Position numbers and translations under genes: made by a program. Positions 11,341 to 37,931 of a DNA stretch of 64,000 bases are shown here, piece by piece. The stretch lies in the NCBI RefSeq assembly GCF_000466385.1, contig NZ_KE952672.1, positions 1-64,000 on the forward strand, written 5' to 3'. The notes beneath the pieces are model-generated. The model did not search any database, was not told where the DNA came from, and was given only the letters and a program-made list of their open reading frames with translations. The DNA is from Aneurinibacillus aneurinilyticus ATCC 12856. GTDB taxonomy: Bacteria; Bacillota; Bacilli; Aneurinibacillales; Aneurinibacillaceae. How positions within the stretch are numbered: the stretch's first letter is position 1; every line of letters begins with the position of its first letter.

Positions 11341-12108
11341 ATGAACCAGGGGAAAATTCCTGTTACGGTATTGAGCGGATATCTGGGTGCTGGAAAAACA
11401 ACTTTATTAAATCATATATTGAACAACCGCGAAGGATTAAAGGTAGCAGTAATTGTGAATGACATGAGCGAGGTAAACATTGATGCGGAATTAATTGAGA
11501 AAGGTACATCGCTATCACGGACAGAAGAGAGGCTGGTGGAAATATCAAATGGCTGTATTTGTTGCACGTTGCGAGAGGATTTGATACAGGAAATTGAGCG
11601 GCTGGCCACTGAAGGGAAATATGATTATATTTTGATCGAATCCACTGGTATTGGTGAACCGATACCGGTAGCACAGACATTTACATATCAGGATGAAGAA
11701 AGCGGAATCGACATAACGAAGTATTGTCGCCTGGATACAATGGTAACGGTAGTAGATGCCTACCGCTTCTGGAAGGATTTCTCTTCAGGTGAGAGTCTTC
11801 TGGAACGTGAGCAGGCAGTAGGTGATGACGATAGACGCGAAGTTGTAGACTTGCTGATTGATCAGATTGAATTTTGTGATGTGCTTATTTTGAATAAGTG
11901 CGATATGGTGTCGGAGGAAGAACTGGAACAGTTAGAAGGTGTACTGCGCAAGCTCCAACCTTCAGCTCGCTTTATTCGCGCATCTCACGGACAAGTGGCT
12001 CCGAAGGAGATATTGAATACTCGGTTATTCGATTTTGATAAAGCATCTCAAGCAGCTGGCTGGATTCAGGAATTGGAGCAGGAGGAACATGCGCCGGTAT
12101 ACGAATGA
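11341..12108 (+). CDS. COG0523 (CobW/YciC/ZagA) metallochaperone GTPase, N-terminal part
   Basis: The 255 residues hold the complete GTPase domain: Walker [11 protein letters not shown] (12-21), the metal-binding GCICC (Cys72, Cys74, Cys75; the CxCC hallmark), ESTG switch, and NKCD for guanine recognition. Family members run to about 390-400 residues with a CobW C-terminal domain. Here the frame ends at a TGA (12106) and that domain continues in the +1 frame from 12089. ZagA/YciC proteins deliver zinc under zinc starvation and are controlled by Zur, consistent with the operator-like sites upstream. The frame change falls inside a perfect inverted repeat. Whether this is a broken gene or two coupled cistrons is open. 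Confidence 0.88.
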
Positions 12109-12562
12109 GGAATATGGTATTTCCTCATTCGTATACCGGCGCAACCGCCCGTTTCATCCAGAACGGTTAGCTACCTGGCTTGCTGATTGGCCAGCGGAAG
12201 TCATACGCGCTAAAGGCTTTATGTGGCTGGCAACCCGCAATGAAATGGCGGTTAGTGTAAGCCAAGCAGGACCGTCCATTCAGCTTGGGGCAGCCGGATA
12301 TTGGATAGCGGCTATGCCAGAAGAAGAAAGGCAGCTTTATTTGGAAGAAGATCCGGAATGGGCGGCGACCTGGGACCCAAAATGGGGTGACCGGATGACG
12401 GAAATCGTGTTAATTGGGATAGGGATAAACAAGAATGAAATTGAAAAGACGCTGGATCGATGTCTGCTGACTGCAGAAGAAGAGGAGGCCGACTGGAGCT
12501 TATTCGCAGATCCGTTGCCTGTATGGGAAGAGGCGGAAGGCATACAGGAGCAGAGCGTATAG
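12089..12562 (+). CDS. COG0523 GTPase, CobW C-terminal domain part
   Basis: The frame encodes 157 residues beginning [16 protein letters not shown] and is the standard CobW_C domain that follows the GTPase domain in COG0523 proteins ([10 protein letters not shown]..., then GFMWLATR). An ATG at 12089 follows AGGAGG with only three intervening bases, overlapping the end of the GTPase frame by 20 bases. Translation could therefore be coupled, making a two-subunit metallochaperone. Alternatively the region is simply the 3' half of a frameshifted gene. A terminator follows directly, so both halves share one transcript. Confidence 0.75.
12090..12143. repeat. Perfect 23-bp inverted repeat at the frame change
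   Basis: Bases 12090-12112 are the exact reverse complement of 12121-12143, with an 8-base loop (TATGGTAT). The right arm encodes conserved CobW_C sequence (SSFVYRRN); the left arm carries the N-terminal part's TGA stop. It is not followed by a T-run and lies inside coding sequence. Confidence 0.97.
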
Positions 12563-13375: not shown

Positions 13376-13894
13376 ATGATGAGTGAGAATTTAGTTGCAG
13401 AGATGAACAAACAGATTAATTTTGAGTTTTATTCCTCTAATTTTTATTTGGCGATGGCAGCCTATTGCGCAGCGGAGGATTTGGACGGTTTTGCTAACTT
13501 TTTTACTGTTCAAGCGCAAGAAGAAAATTTTCACGCGATGAAAATTTTTCATTTTTTAAATGCTACTGGTAATCGAGTACTTATTGAAGGGCTAGAAGCG
13601 CCACAAAATGAATTTACTTCGGTCGAAGATGTATTTCGCGCGGCATATGAACATGAGCAATTAGTAACAAAACGGATATATTATCTGGCAGATATGGCTG
13701 CGCAGGAGCGCGAGCATGCGACCAGCAGCTTTTTAAATTGGTTCATTGATGAACAAATTGAAGAGGAAGCGACCTTCAGCAGCATTCTAAAAAAATTAGA
13801 GCGAATTGGCGCTGACGGAAATGCATTATACATGCTTGATGACGAACTAGGCAAGCGCACTTTCGAGCCACAGGACGCTACCACATTTAAATAA
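13376..13894 (+). CDS. Ferritin (FtnA type)
   Basis: This is a non-heme ferritin of about 172 residues. The di-iron centre ligands are visible: Glu in NFEFYSSNFYLAM, the E-E-x-x-H pattern in AQEENFHAMKIF, and Glu/Gln in the C-terminal helix (NWFIDEQIEEEATF). Ferritins form 24-mer cages that oxidise and store iron in the cytoplasm. ATG 13376 or 13379 follows AAAGAGG; the longer frame from 13322 lacks a ribosome site. With dps, pfeT and ylaN nearby it adds to the iron theme of this region. Confidence 0.93.
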   Translation: MMSENLVAEMNKQINFEFYSSNFYLAMAAYCAAEDLDGFANFFTVQAQEENFHAMKIFHFLNATGNRVLIEGLEAPQNEFTSVEDVFRAAYEHEQLVTKRIYYLADMAAQEREHATSSFLNWFIDEQIEEEATFSSILKKLERIGADGNALYMLDDELGKRTFEPQDATTFK

Positions 13895-13930
13895 ATTTGA
13901 ACAAATTGTGATAATCTCTGCAAGATGTGG

Positions 13931-13948
13931 GTAATAATTAATTATTAC
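13931..13948. repeat. Perfect 18-bp palindrome, candidate operator
   Basis: GTAATAATTAATTATTAC reads identically on both strands. It lies 28 bases upstream of the next small gene's ATG and has no T-run or GC stem, so it is more likely a protein-binding site than a terminator. Confidence 0.5.
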
Positions 13949-13976
13949 TACATTTTTACAAAGGGGTTTTCACACA

Positions 13977-14180
13977 ATGAATTGGATTGCAAAGCAGTGG
14001 CATCATGCCTGGGCCAGTTATTATGCATCCAAGGTTGAGAGCCTGGATAAAACTACAGAAGATACGTATAATGCAGATTTACGCACTTATCATTCGAAAA
14101 AATTTGTTACTCATTATGAGGCGTTATATGGAAGCGAACGTCAGGAACAAAGCAATGAAAAATCGATGCGTACATTTTAA
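13977..14180 (+). CDS. Small hydrophilic protein, unknown
   Basis: This 67-residue protein begins MNWIAKQWHHAWASYYASK. It is rich in Trp, Tyr and His at the N-terminus and otherwise polar, without a membrane segment. I do not recognise the family. AAAGGGG precedes the ATG at suitable spacing. A perfect 18-bp palindrome just upstream hints at specific regulation, and the gene follows ferritin by 82 bases without an obvious terminator between, so read-through from ferritin is possible. An overlapping frame at 13987 has no ribosome site. Confidence 0.6.
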   Translation: MNWIAKQWHHAWASYYASKVESLDKTTEDTYNADLRTYHSKKFVTHYEALYGSERQEQSNEKSMRTF

Positions 14181-14235
14181 GCTCACTGAAGATATGCCAA
14201 GCAAGGAGTCTGCTATGTAATTGCAGCAGGCTCCC

Positions 14236-14344
14236 TTGTCACCAAGCGGATAAACGAGTATAATAATGTATACAGCAAGAACATAGCGCTTAACAAAGGG
14301 AGTACAAACTCCCTCTTGCAAAAATCGAGCCAATTATGTATGAT
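14236..14344 (+). promoter_or_regulatory. Tandem promoters for the noncoding transcript
   Basis: P1: TTGTCA (14236-14241), 17 bases, TATAAT (14259-14264). P2: TTGCAA (14316-14321), 17 bases, TATGAT (14339-14344). A hairpin, AGGGAGT with ACTCCCT (about 14298-14315), lies between them. No convincing coding frame follows. Confidence 0.6.
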
Positions 14345-14350
14345 AATAAT

Positions 14351-14594
14351 CAATAAAGCAAAACATATTGCCTGCGATGTACGATTCATTTTTTTGTTTC
14401 GAACCTTACGAAGAAAAAGGGAGTCTAAAATTAGGCTATGGACGCTATGCTCGCCAAGACGGGACAGCGGAAGTGGCTTTGCGGACACCCACCTGCGAGA
14501 GCGGGTTTTGAAACATAAGGGTGAAACGGCATAGGCGGGGTTTCATAATGAACTAACCAGGACGCTTTTGTATTTTATGCAAGTGTTCTTTTTA
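14351..14594 (+). ncRNA. ssrS: Structured noncoding RNA, possible 6S RNA
   Basis: Between strong promoters and a terminator lies about 240 bases with no gene. Its 3' half contains ACACCCACCTGCGAGAGCGG followed by GTTTTGAAAC and AAGGGTGAAACGG. The ACCC/GGGT hairpin and this sequence resemble the conserved 3' region of Firmicute 6S RNA as I remember it. CTATGC (about 14442-14450) can pair with GCATAG near 14529-14535 to close a long helix. 6S RNA mimics an open promoter and binds sigma-A RNA polymerase. The identity rests on recalled motifs; the presence of a transcript rests on promoter and terminator. Confidence 0.5.
14559..14594 (+). terminator. Terminator of the noncoding RNA
   Basis: AGGACGCTT (14559-14567) pairs with AAGTGTTCT (14581-14589) using G-U pairs, then TTTTT. 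Confidence 0.7.
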
Positions 14595-14624
14595 TTTATA
14601 ACGAATAAAAAATGCTGTGCATGT

Positions 14625-14655
14625 AAAAACTCTCATCATTCGATGAGAGTTTTTT
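14625..14655. terminator. Bidirectional terminator
   Basis: AAAACTCTCATC (14626-14637) pairs with GATGAGAGTTTT (14642-14653) around ATTC. It serves the minus-strand small membrane gene and gives a second stop for the ncRNA. Confidence 0.88.
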
Positions 14656-14667
14656 GTGTCAGAGGAA

Positions 14668-14802
14668 TTACTTCACAAAATACTCGACAATCATCATACC
14701 GATAAAGATAACCATTAAAATGCCGAACGAAAAGCCAAATCCGAGAGAAGAATCGACTACATCATTTTGGTTTTTGTCTAAATTCAGGTTTGGATTTGTC
14801 AT
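14668..14802 (-). CDS. YqzM-like small membrane protein
   Basis: The reverse strand encodes 44 residues with an N-terminal polar part (NPNLNLDKNQNDVVDSS), one transmembrane helix rich in Gly/Phe (GFGFSFGILMVIFIGMMIV) and a short EYFVK tail. The NDVVDS...GF.FSFG pattern resembles YqzM, a small membrane protein of Bacillaceae of unknown function. GGAGGTGATTG precedes the ATG at 14802. It is the last gene before a bidirectional terminator. Confidence 0.65.
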   Translation of the reverse strand: MTNPNLNLDKNQNDVVDSSLGFGFSFGILMVIFIGMMIVEYFVK

Positions 14803-14910
14803 TGTTCAATCACCTCCATTTTTTCATCATATCATAGGAGGCAGGCCGTCGCCTACGAAGGTAAGGGGCAAACAAGTGACAAATTTGCTAGTTTTTCTTA
14901 ACATAAAGAA

Positions 14911-16361: not shown

Positions 16362-16436
16362 TGGACAGTAGCCAAGCGGTAAGGCACCGGACTTTGACTC
16401 CGTTATACGAAGGTTCGATCCCTTCCTGTCCAGCCA
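16362..16436 (+). tRNA. trnQ: tRNA-Gln (UUG)
   Basis: The 72-base cloverleaf has acceptor arm TGGACAG/CTGTCCA, D-arm GCCAAGCGGTAAGGC, anticodon loop CTTTGAC with anticodon TTG at 16394-16396, and T-arm GGTTCGATCCC. The CCA end is encoded (16434-16436). Confidence 0.97.
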
Positions 16437-35064: not shown

Positions 35065-36738
35065 TTGTTTCAAAAGATAAATAATATGTCAATTAAATTA
35101 AAATTAACGGCAACTATTTTGCTTATTACCCTTATTCCGTTAATGGCATCAGGATTTCTAAGCTATCACTCTGCTTATGATAGCGTCTATGATATGACTG
35201 TACAGGATTTGAAGTATATGACTAAAGTAAAGGCAGAGGAAATCGCCGCTTATACAAAAGACGGTCATGTAGATGCAGCTATGTCAGAAAAAATAAAAGC
35301 ACTGGTGGATGATGTAGAGACAAGTTATTACAAGGCTAATGGATTGAGTGGATACGCTTACATTATAGATGATCAGGGAAAGGTATTGTACCATCCTGAC
35401 CCTCAAATGATAGGCACAAGCCTTGCGAATGAATCATTTGCCCAGGAAATTCTTAAAGAGAAAACCGGATACATTACATACCCCTGGAAGGGGGAAGAGA
35501 AAGTTGCTTCATTCTCGCAATTGCCGAATGGATGGGAGCTGGTTATCGGCAGCTATTTAAAAGATATGATGAAGCCCCTTCTGTTTATTCGTAACCAGAT
35601 GTTCGTTATTAGTCTTGTTTCCTCATTGCTTGCCATCGTCATCGGATACGTCATCGTACATATGTTGACAAAACCGATGAAAGAGCTTGTACAGGCCATG
35701 GAAAAAGCGGAGGCAGGAGACGTTACTGTACAGGTTACACCAGGCTCCAAGGATGAAGTGGGACAACTCACTCATATGTTTAATGAGATGATTCGCGAAT
35801 TCAGAAATATGCTACGTCAGGTACATGAAGTTTCAGAGCAGGTAGCGGCCTCTTCCGAGCAGCTGACAGCCAGTGCCAATGAAAGTACGCGTGCATCGGA
35901 ACAAATTTCGGAGGCATCACAGGAAATTGCCTCCGGGTCGGAAGGACAGATGGAAAGCGTACGCGCGACAACTGAGGCGCTGCATGAGATGAGCGGCAAC
36001 ATACAGTCAATTGCTGATAAAATTCAAGCTGTCAAACATGACTCATCAACGGTAGTAAAATATGCACATACGGGCGAAAGTTCTCTGAAAAAGGTAATTT
36101 GGGAAATGAATGATATTTCTGAAAAAGTTAGTAATACAGAAGTGCAGATTCGTGAACTGGGAAACCGTTCGGAAGCGATCAAGGGAATTATTGGAACGAT
36201 TCATGAAATTAGCGAACAGACCAATCTGCTTGCATTAAATGCAGCGATTGAAGCGGCACGTGCCGGGGAGCAAGGAAAAAGCTTCGCAGTAGTTGCTCAA
36301 GAAATTCGTAAGCTGGCAGAGCAATCGGGTAAATCAGCAAGAGAGATTGCGATGTTGATCTCTGATATTCACGCCAAAATCGGTACCGCTGTTACTTCGA
36401 TGGGCGAGAGCAGCAAAGCCGTATCGGAAGGTCGCAGCGTAGTAGAAGAGGCGGGGCAATCATTCTCTAGCATTCTTAAAGCGATTGCCGATTTGAATAA
36501 GCAGATCGAGCTTGTGACGGCTTCTTCCAAAACGATTTCCGAAGGAACGGAACATATTGTACGCCAGGGAGATGAAATATCACGCCTGGCATCTATTGCT
36601 GCGGCTGATACACAGGAAGTGGCTGCTGCATCGGAGGAACAAACCGCCACGATGGAGGAAATCAATGCCGCATCCGAGATGCTGGCCAAGATGGCGGAGG
36701 AGCTGCAAGCACATGTCAGCCGATTTAAAATCTCATAG
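35065..36738 (+). CDS. Methyl-accepting chemotaxis protein with Cache sensor
   Basis: This chemoreceptor of about 557 residues has TM1 (about 12-33), an extracellular Cache-type sensor ([42 protein letters not shown]), TM2 (about 183-205), a HAMP linker beginning [12 protein letters not shown], and a signalling domain with the hairpin tip [24 protein letters not shown]. It reports ligands to CheA; small carboxylates are typical for such sensors but unproven here. The start is TTG 35065, because GGGAGG lies seven bases upstream; the longer ORF overlaps phaQ and lacks a site. Confidence 0.92.
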
Positions 36739-36799
36739 CGTGTAGCATTCCGCTCCTTAATTAGCTAGAATGAGAAAAAAGGGGCGGGAGGTGAAAGAA

Positions 36800-37384
36800 T
36801 TGGATTATGTGGATCGCAATCGTGCTTCTTTTGATAAGCTGGCAAATGAGACAGGGGGAAAGTGGCGTCACCGCGAGCTGACTATGCAGTTTATTTCCGG
36901 ATTTCAAATGCTTTTGGGCGGCAACAGCGTGCTTGATCTCGGGTGCGGGGTAGGCCATGATGCGCTTAGACTAAAGCGTTATGATCTGCATGTGCAGGGA
37001 TTGGACATCAGTGAGGTAATGCTTGAACAGGCCAAACAGCAGGTGCAGGGTGTCGAGTTTATCCAAGGGGATTTCCGGCATATTCCGACCGGGAATGAAC
37101 TGTACGACGGAGTATGGGCTAACGCCTCGCTGATTTATTTAACAGAAGAAGATTTGCATAAAGCATTGGATGAAGTGTACCGGGTGTTAAAGCCGGGTGG
37201 TGTTTTCTTCTCTTCATACCGACTTGGTGAAGGTAATGTCGTTATTGATAATATTTTCAACCAGTTATATAGGGAGGAGGAAATACAGAATATCCTGCGT
37301 TTGCACGGATTTCGAATTTTTGACCGGACGAATACCGGGGGCGAGGAAGAGCCGTACTTAAGCTTATATGCTATTAAGCAATAA
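36800..37384 (+). CDS. Class I SAM-dependent methyltransferase
   Basis: This 194-residue enzyme has motif I SVLDLGCGVGHDALRL, beta-2 GLDISEVML, the QGDFRHIPTG motif II region and RVLKPGGVFFSSYR. It begins LDYVDRNRASFDKLANETGG, the usual helical lead-in of this group. The substrate is unknown. GGGAGGTG points to TTG 36800 as the start; GTG 36791 and ATG 36770 are in frame but poorly placed. It follows the chemoreceptor gene by 61 bases. Confidence 0.82.
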   Translation: MDYVDRNRASFDKLANETGGKWRHRELTMQFISGFQMLLGGNSVLDLGCGVGHDALRLKRYDLHVQGLDISEVMLEQAKQQVQGVEFIQGDFRHIPTGNELYDGVWANASLIYLTEEDLHKALDEVYRVLKPGGVFFSSYRLGEGNVVIDNIFNQLYREEEIQNILRLHGFRIFDRTNTGGEEEPYLSLYAIKQ

Positions 37385-37413
37385 TTTCACCTATATATTT
37401 TGTGCATACATAG

Positions 37414-37444
37414 AAATAGCCACGGAAAGCCCGTGGCTATTTTC
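37414..37444. terminator. Bidirectional terminator overlapping the thioesterase stop
   Basis: AAATAGCCACGG (37414-37425) pairs with CCGTGGCTATTT (37431-37442). The minus-strand stop codon (37437-37439) is inside the stem. Confidence 0.92.
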
Positions 37445-37931
37445 TTTTTTTTAGGCGTTCTTTTGTGAGCTCACGACGTCGACTGCGGATTTCGAAGCGC
37501 TCAGACGCGGTTTTGTAATTCCAACGTTCTTCTTCTGTCTCGGGAAGCACAGGAGGAACAGGCGTTGGTTTATCGTTTTCGTCAAGTGCCACGAATGTCA
37601 GGTACGCTTGCGAAGTCAGGCGCCGTTCGCCTGTTAGCAGATTTTCCGCTTCGACTTTTACATATACTTCCATTGATGTGTGATGGGTCCAGGATACGTA
37701 ACCTTCGAGGCAGATAGCTTCCCCGGTACGGATAGGCGCAAGAAAATCAAGGCTATCGCTTGATGCGGTTACGACCTGTCTTCGGCAGTGGCGCATGGCA
37801 GTAATGCTTGCAACTTTATCGATATAAGCCATAACATTTCCGCCAAAAATCGTTCCATGATAGTTCGTATCAGGTGGGAGTACAATATCGGTCATGATTG
37901 TGCGTGATTCGCTCGTTTTCTTTCCGTTCAA
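37437..37931 (-). CDS. Acyl-CoA thioesterase, hotdog fold (YkhA-like)
   Basis: This 164-residue protein has the YciA/YkhA hotdog signature: VLPPDTNYHGTIFGGNVMAYIDKVASITAMRH with the catalytic Asp region, VTASSDSLDFLAPIRTGE, then MEVYVKVEAENLLTGERRL. It hydrolyses acyl-CoA esters to free acids and CoA. The C-terminus is an Arg/Lys-rich tail (SRRRELTKERLKKRK). The start is TTG at 37931, with AGGTGAG eight bases upstream. Confidence 0.9.
   Translation of the reverse strand: MNGKKTSESRTIMTDIVLPPDTNYHGTIFGGNVMAYIDKVASITAMRHCRRQVVTASSDSLDFLAPIRTGEAICLEGYVSWTHHTSMEVYVKVEAENLLTGERRLTSQAYLTFVALDENDKPTPVPPVLPETEEERWNYKTASERFEIRSRRRELTKERLKKRK

Follow-up and report, generated by a model that had tools for sequence, protein, structure and literature searches.

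Results

Locus and Neighboring Genes

The window analyzed here, a stretch of 64,000 nucleotides of the Aneurinibacillus aneurinilyticus ATCC 12856 genome, carries a full-length 6S RNA gene at 14366–14545 on the forward strand. It was recognized by a covariance search against RF00013, with a match spanning model positions 1–187 of 187 at 73.4 bits (cut-off 46.4; E 1.4e-12 for the whole window). A first-pass annotation made from the letters had noticed a resemblance to 6S RNA near 14478–14530; the resemblance was borne out by the search, but the limits were too narrow, since homology actually covers 14366–14545. The possibility of an undescribed RNA, also raised there, falls because the covariance search assigns 6S RNA at such a score. 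The Rfam search of the 64 kb gave one other family at its cut-off, a tRNA (16362–16433), and the ten matches to families besides 6S found within 13900–14900 at E up to 10 are all under their gathering scores. The stretch of about 240 bases described as free of genes holds no other supported gene either: ORFs listed there overlap the 6S or run antisense to it. The stretch encodes a second copy of a well-known RNA and, as a gene, it is ordinary.

Upstream, on the same strand, lie a ferritin gene (13379–13894, start codon uncertain; PF00210, 141.6 bits on 13382–13891) and an ORF for a 67-aa protein (13977–14180) with no Pfam match at E 0.001. This pair is followed by a hairpin without T-run (14205–14234, forward strand; fold -16.2 kcal/mol), possibly a decayed terminator; by eye, a hairpin with a T-run occupies the same interval in G002 (compared genomes are given as G numbers and fetched loci as L numbers). 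Downstream, a YqzM-like 44-aa protein is encoded convergently (14668–14802, reverse strand; PF14141, 33.5 bits, cut-off 27), and a symmetric terminator-like hairpin with no strand assigned stands between it and the 6S gene (14625–14654; -16.3 kcal/mol). Gene order is partly shared among relatives, which include G001 of the window's genus and G007, G008 and G010 of the same family. YqzM-like, TlpA-like, GDPD and methyltransferase genes are found downstream, all or in part, in G001, G002, G004, G005, G006, G007 and G008, and, in G010, GDPD and a distant HxlR gene were all that was recovered downstream. The ferritin gene is common to G002, G004, G005 and G006, with homologues of the 67-aa ORF conserved behind it in G002 and G005. 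Elsewhere in the window, a CobW N-terminal domain and a CobW_C domain lie in two overlapping frames (11341–12108 and 12035–12562), resembling a single COG0523 gene that was broken by a frameshift or by a sequencing error.

Fold and Covariation

Both the minimum free energy (MFE) fold and the consensus fold are a rod with two irregular arms, a bubble whose 5′ strand is open over 15 nt in the MFE fold, and a small hairpin on the 3′ side. The MFE z-score is -3.88 and none of 200 shuffles was equally stable. Covariation was assessed in 13 aligned sequences, i.e., the window's plus eight from its own family, three from a sister family of the same order and one more distant; it does not include four non-aspS copies from the order, G007c, G011y, G013x and G014x. 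Over 52 pairs, 96.7% of the 676 cells are paired, and 18 of these pairs show changes on both sides. The observed value of any of five covariation measures was reached by 0 of 500 shuffles. When partners were slid, pairing dropped to 39–47%, a control in which the structure is favored by being derived from the same alignment. The covariation supports the 6S fold.

Promoters, Leader and Terminator

The tandem sigma-A promoters with 17-base spacers proposed in the first-pass annotation are both present as promoter-like sites. The distal one, P1 (TTGTCA-17-TATAAT, 14236–14264, forward strand), has 11 of 12 consensus bases and a predicted start at ~14271; the proximal one, P2 (TTGCAA-17-TATGAT, 14316–14344, forward strand), has 9 of 12 and a predicted start at ~14351. 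Forward-strand sites of at least 11/12 arose in 0.1% of 2000 dinucleotide shuffles of the intergenic 14181–14365 (185 nt) and in 1.55% of 2000 shuffles of 13895–14365 (471 nt), and the whole 64 kb window contains five such sites on both strands. All 12 hexamer bases of P1 are kept in the closest relative, G005, although 38 mismatches have accumulated between the two genomes over the 185 nt before the 6S. None of the other seven family genomes with the gene has a counterpart above 8/12 at that distance; sites of 8/12 are present at -111 to -137 in G004 and G006. P1 was therefore rejected as a general feature of the locus, being an 11/12 site in the window and G005 only.

Taken alone, the 9/12 score of P2 is within chance, as promoter-like sites number 13 over 3 kb where 6.9 ± 2.1 would be expected. 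P2 is credible despite that score because it recurs at the same place in relatives: TTGCAA with a 17-nt spacer in G005, G002 and G001 and, by eye, a TTGCAT box in G006, G004 and G007. No promoter-like site of at least 8/12 was found within 150 nt before the 6S in G008 and G010, where tRNA genes are found instead.

The gene ends at an intrinsic terminator, as had been claimed (14559–14597, forward strand; stem-loop 14559–14589, U-rich tail 14590–14597; -10.2 kcal/mol). This hairpin was missed by a generic terminator scan, for which the G-U pairs and the bulge in its stem are probably to blame. All eight family relatives folded have a hairpin with a T-run directly 3′ of the 6S, with differing stem sequences. 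By this recurrence, the gene has its own transcription signals at the sequence level, P2 and the terminator.

Only transcripts from P1 would carry a 7-bp hairpin located between the promoters (14297–14314, forward strand; -10.5 kcal/mol); judged by eye, G005 forms this hairpin too, from a different sequence. Together with the 11/12 score of P1, this hairpin could suggest that the leader, 14271–14365, acts alone and makes the longer RNA a different regulator. We consider this very unlikely: conservation of the leader between the P1 start and the 6S reaches no further than G005, and no Rfam match overlaps it at E up to 10.

Two 6S Paralogues in One Genome

The genome has two 6S matches, located on different contigs: the window copy, at 73.4 bits, and G000:C151:12258-12440, at 92.8 bits. 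Of the 51 other loci examined, 28 have a homologue of the ORF before the latter next to the 6S, a count that covers this locus too. We read it as aspS, from the look of the protein ends and from the B. subtilis order aspS–bsrA–yrvM. G000:C151:12258-12440 (in L032) holds the standard 6S-1 place after aspS and the window copy does not, which agrees with the earlier remark that the location could not be matched to known 6S loci. The surroundings of the aspS-linked copy are conserved in relatives as far as contigs reach.

The lower score of the window copy and the lack of a window-type copy in one of the seven genomes of the genus (G003, a draft) might be taken as signs that a duplicated 6S gene is decaying here into a pseudogene, whose RNA is not produced or does not work. 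This is extremely unlikely. The 6S body differs from that of G005 at four positions (176 of 180 identities), whereas an alignment of the preceding 185 nt contains 146 identities, 38 mismatches and two gaps. Compensatory changes across the 13 sequences and the recurrence of promoter and terminator in relatives also argue for a maintained gene.

Across 15 genomes of the order we found 29 copies, 13 aspS-linked and 16 non-aspS. A tree of 52 tips was built from all 29 and from 23 of the 31 matches outside the order (G018, G020, G029, G031, G036, G037, G038 and G040 were left out). It splits into 26 tips that are all aspS-linked and 26 tips that include two aspS-linked ones (G015 and G035), and this deep split has an SH-aLRT support of 91.7 and a bootstrap of 58. 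The 16 non-aspS copies of the order form a clade with G019 and G033y (88.4; ultrafast bootstrap 96). Within it, the window copy and eight family orthologues form another (95.5; bootstrap 94). Nine genomes of the family have both copies, and their two lineages do not mix in the tree.

The bootstrap of only 58 at the deep split would leave room for the window RNA to belong to the 6S-1 lineage, as a recent duplicate of the aspS-linked gene. Such an origin is highly improbable, given that the same genome keeps a separate copy behind an aspS-like ORF in conserved surroundings and that the nine window-type copies, as well as the non-aspS copies of the order, group in the clades just described. We favor two paralogous lineages. 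Whether the window lineage is that of Bacillus 6S-2 is a different matter. G027, a Bacillus-like genome, carries the exact complement of the B. subtilis 6S-1 pRNA, and its second copy was taken as Bacillus 6S-2 for that reason. This copy falls on the window's side of the tree but outside the 18-tip clade, at splits of 91.7/58 and 86.3/69 (SH-aLRT/bootstrap). Given the bootstrap of 58, the presence of G015 and G035 on the window's side and the placement of G027, the link of the window copy to Bacillus 6S-2 is only moderately supported.

A separate observation concerns the 6S-1 promoter. A CcpA-site-like palindrome lies on the -35 box of 10 of the 11 aspS-linked family copies, the one without it being G009, and matches 12–13 of 14 positions of the cre consensus. 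In the 6S-1 copy of A. aneurinilyticus it is found at L032 6214–6227 (G000:C151:12213-12226). The exact 14-mer occurs once in the genome, at this box, and with one mismatch at two more sites (three for the backward control). The genome has a CcpA gene. No CcpA site was found at the window copy, where the best match was 8/14. According to passages of PMC8414754, roughly one in three species of lactic acid bacteria has such a site at its 6S promoter, and in B. subtilis no 6S gene turned up among the CcpA targets.

Sister Copies Beside tRNA and Other Stable-RNA Genes

A same-strand tRNA gene lies within 300 nt of 8 of the 16 non-aspS copies (G007c, G008b, G010b, G011x, G012, G013x, G013y and G014x), seven of them at 5–82 nt. 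The fetched loci of the 13 aspS-linked copies contain none, that of G003 spanning only 3.85 kb with the 6S near a contig end. Loci were scanned for 23 of the 31 matches outside the order, and none of these loci, 12 of which span only ~3.2 kb, shows a tRNA. Gaps of 5–22 nt are found at L046 1013–1286, L051 142–1114, L073 2742–3238, L076 2995–3273, L078 2969–3238 and L080 2970–3412, and one of 82 nt at L048 5430–5776.

Two cases occupy the locus orthologous to that of the window. In G008, tRNA-Val, -Met and -Asp come directly before the 6S with a 13-nt gap and, in G010, a Val-Met-Asp-Gly series precedes it by 82 nt; a terminator-like hairpin follows each 6S. In both genomes, the tRNA genes take the position of the window's promoters. 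A Bacillaceae-1 RNA (RF01690, L048 5833–5898) also lies within the tRNA cluster that precedes the 6S of G010, and by eye a similar spacer occurs in the clusters of G007 and G008.

Other copies are flanked on one side or both. G007c has tRNA-Pro on one side (10 nt) and tRNA-Met on the other (22 nt). The sole 6S detected in G012 lies between tRNA-Arg (12 nt), itself preceded by a 10/12 promoter, and tRNA-His (11 nt). G011x starts 13 nt after tRNA-Arg. Promoter-like sites are found just before G014x (9/12) and G013y (10/12), which are followed by tRNA-His after 5 nt and by tRNA-Arg after 20 nt, respectively. G013x (L075/L131; G013:C16, ~36300–37500, reverse strand) belongs to a compact row of RNase P RNA, 6S, SRP RNA, tRNA-His and tRNA-Gln with gaps of 34, 15, 10 and 102 nt. 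A prophage origin of the RNase P–6S–SRP cluster in L131 was considered and rejected, as the surrounding ORFs look chromosomal by eye.

The genomes of the sister family (G011–G014) have two to three RNase P RNA and two to three SRP RNA genes each, and G010, of the window's family, has two RNase P RNAs. It is unusual for a genome to carry several RNase P RNA genes. The surroundings of these genes were scanned at the eight extra-copy loci fetched, the best-scoring copies in L101–L130 being left out. Extra copies lie beside a tRNA or each other at four of the eight (L137, L138, L141 and L144) and have no such neighbors at L139, L140, L142 and L143. Estimated assembly contamination is 8% for G007, 8% for G010, 7% for G014, 4% for G013 and 3% for G012, so that an isolated extra copy, G007c for instance, could be of foreign origin.

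Discussion

Our analysis established the RNA family and its fold, two paralogous 6S lineages, a terminator and a conserved proximal promoter. What first appeared as an orphan RNA is settled as a second 6S gene, and the two Aneurinibacillus paralogues differ in their surroundings and promoters. The locus is almost certainly a standalone, 6S-2-like gene that would be expressed from P2 and probably from P1, end at its terminator and give a trimmed rod that would hold polymerase off and be released by pRNA synthesis.

In this scenario, transcription from P2 (~14351) to the terminator near 14594 would give a primary RNA of ~244 nt and, in the window species, a start at P1 (~14271) would probably give one of ~324 nt, both trimmed to a rod of ~180–190 nt. 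By imitating melted promoter DNA, the open central bubble would let the RNA bind the sigma-A RNA polymerase holoenzyme, which would then be withheld from sigma-A promoters. With an ample supply of nucleotides, the polymerase would use the 5′ strand of the bubble as template for a short pRNA, and this synthesis would refold the 6S RNA and free the enzyme. We infer polymerase binding, pRNA synthesis, trimming and a growth-phase role by analogy with the 6S family. Passages of PMC11077062 and PMC7430163 describe B. subtilis 6S-1 and 6S-2 as both binding the sigma-A holoenzyme and templating pRNAs.

The predicted pRNA template is the 5′ side of the central bubble, 14396–14410 on the forward strand. 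Within it, U42 and A43 (14407–14408) are invariant in all 13 sequences. Under the rule given in section 12 of PMC8414754, an adenine lies immediately upstream of where the pRNA starts; known pRNAs have GG at 4/5 or 5/6. A start opposite U 14407 has the upstream adenine and would place GG at 3/4; one opposite C 14409 has no conserved A before it. Initiation is most likely opposite U 14407, just before the invariant A 14408, and the pRNA would probably start with A.

Among known systems, B. subtilis 6S-2 (bsrB) is similar in being a second 6S paralogue away from aspS. The pRNA of bsrB begins with A, as predicted for the window copy, which also shares its side of the tree with the second 6S of the Bacillus-like G027. 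On the other hand, none of nine window proteins was matched within the 8.2 kb near that second copy, and the G027 copy is outside the window's 18-tip clade. Expression of B. subtilis 6S-2 peaks in exponential growth, as stated in part of PMC11077062. Its function was called unknown in passages of a 2020 review (PMC7430163), where no link of 6S-2 with ferritin is mentioned, nor was one found in the open-licence literature. A study later than that review reportedly describes a biofilm phenotype in B. subtilis. Family, fold and expected mechanism are those of B. subtilis 6S-1 (bsrA). According to an excerpt of PMC11077062, bsrA lies between aspS and yrvM; in the window genome, by contrast, it is the other copy (L032) that occupies this place by aspS.

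The 6S gene of E. coli, ssrS, has two promoters at different distances. It differs from the window gene in that the distal site of the latter is lineage-specific and in that the tested neighbors of the window 6S include no ygfA linkage. The relevant portions of PMC4064990 link ssrS to ygfA, those of PMC8998176 name a native P1 promoter of ssrS, and neither the latter nor portions of PMC5982834 give tandem ssrS promoters. The Bacillus cereus group also has two 6S paralogues in a Bacilli genome, ssrSA and ssrSB. These are tandem and co-transcribed, as reported in passages of PMC7726162, whereas the two genes of the window genome are on different contigs. We found no report in the open-licence literature of 6S with Aneurinibacillus, and papers matched there for a second copy in Firmicutes/Brevibacillus did not deal with this subject.

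The unusual part, worth a specialist's look, is that the sister copies recurrently stand beside tRNA and other stable-RNA genes. No report of 6S in tRNA operons or clusters was found in the open-licence literature, and the available sections of one mycobacterial paper treat Ms1/6S and tRNA clusters separately. From the spacing, tRNA and 6S may be transcribed as one unit. We tentatively hypothesize, while regarding it as somewhat doubtful, that the 6S-2-like gene of this order behaves as a tRNA-type stable RNA gene, moving between its own promoters and tRNA or mixed ncRNA operons and freed by tRNA-processing enzymes, with a dose that follows growth-rate-controlled tRNA synthesis, unlike 6S-1. 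RNase P would then cut at a tRNA on the 3′ side, and RNase Z or exonucleases would act at a tRNA on the 5′ side. The window locus would be a case where tRNA genes were swapped for the gene's own promoters, or the reverse. If these 6S copies are expressed with tRNA and with RNase P and SRP RNA genes, the dose of 6S would be tied to growth rate, and this, if true, would be a testable handle on the role of the second 6S.
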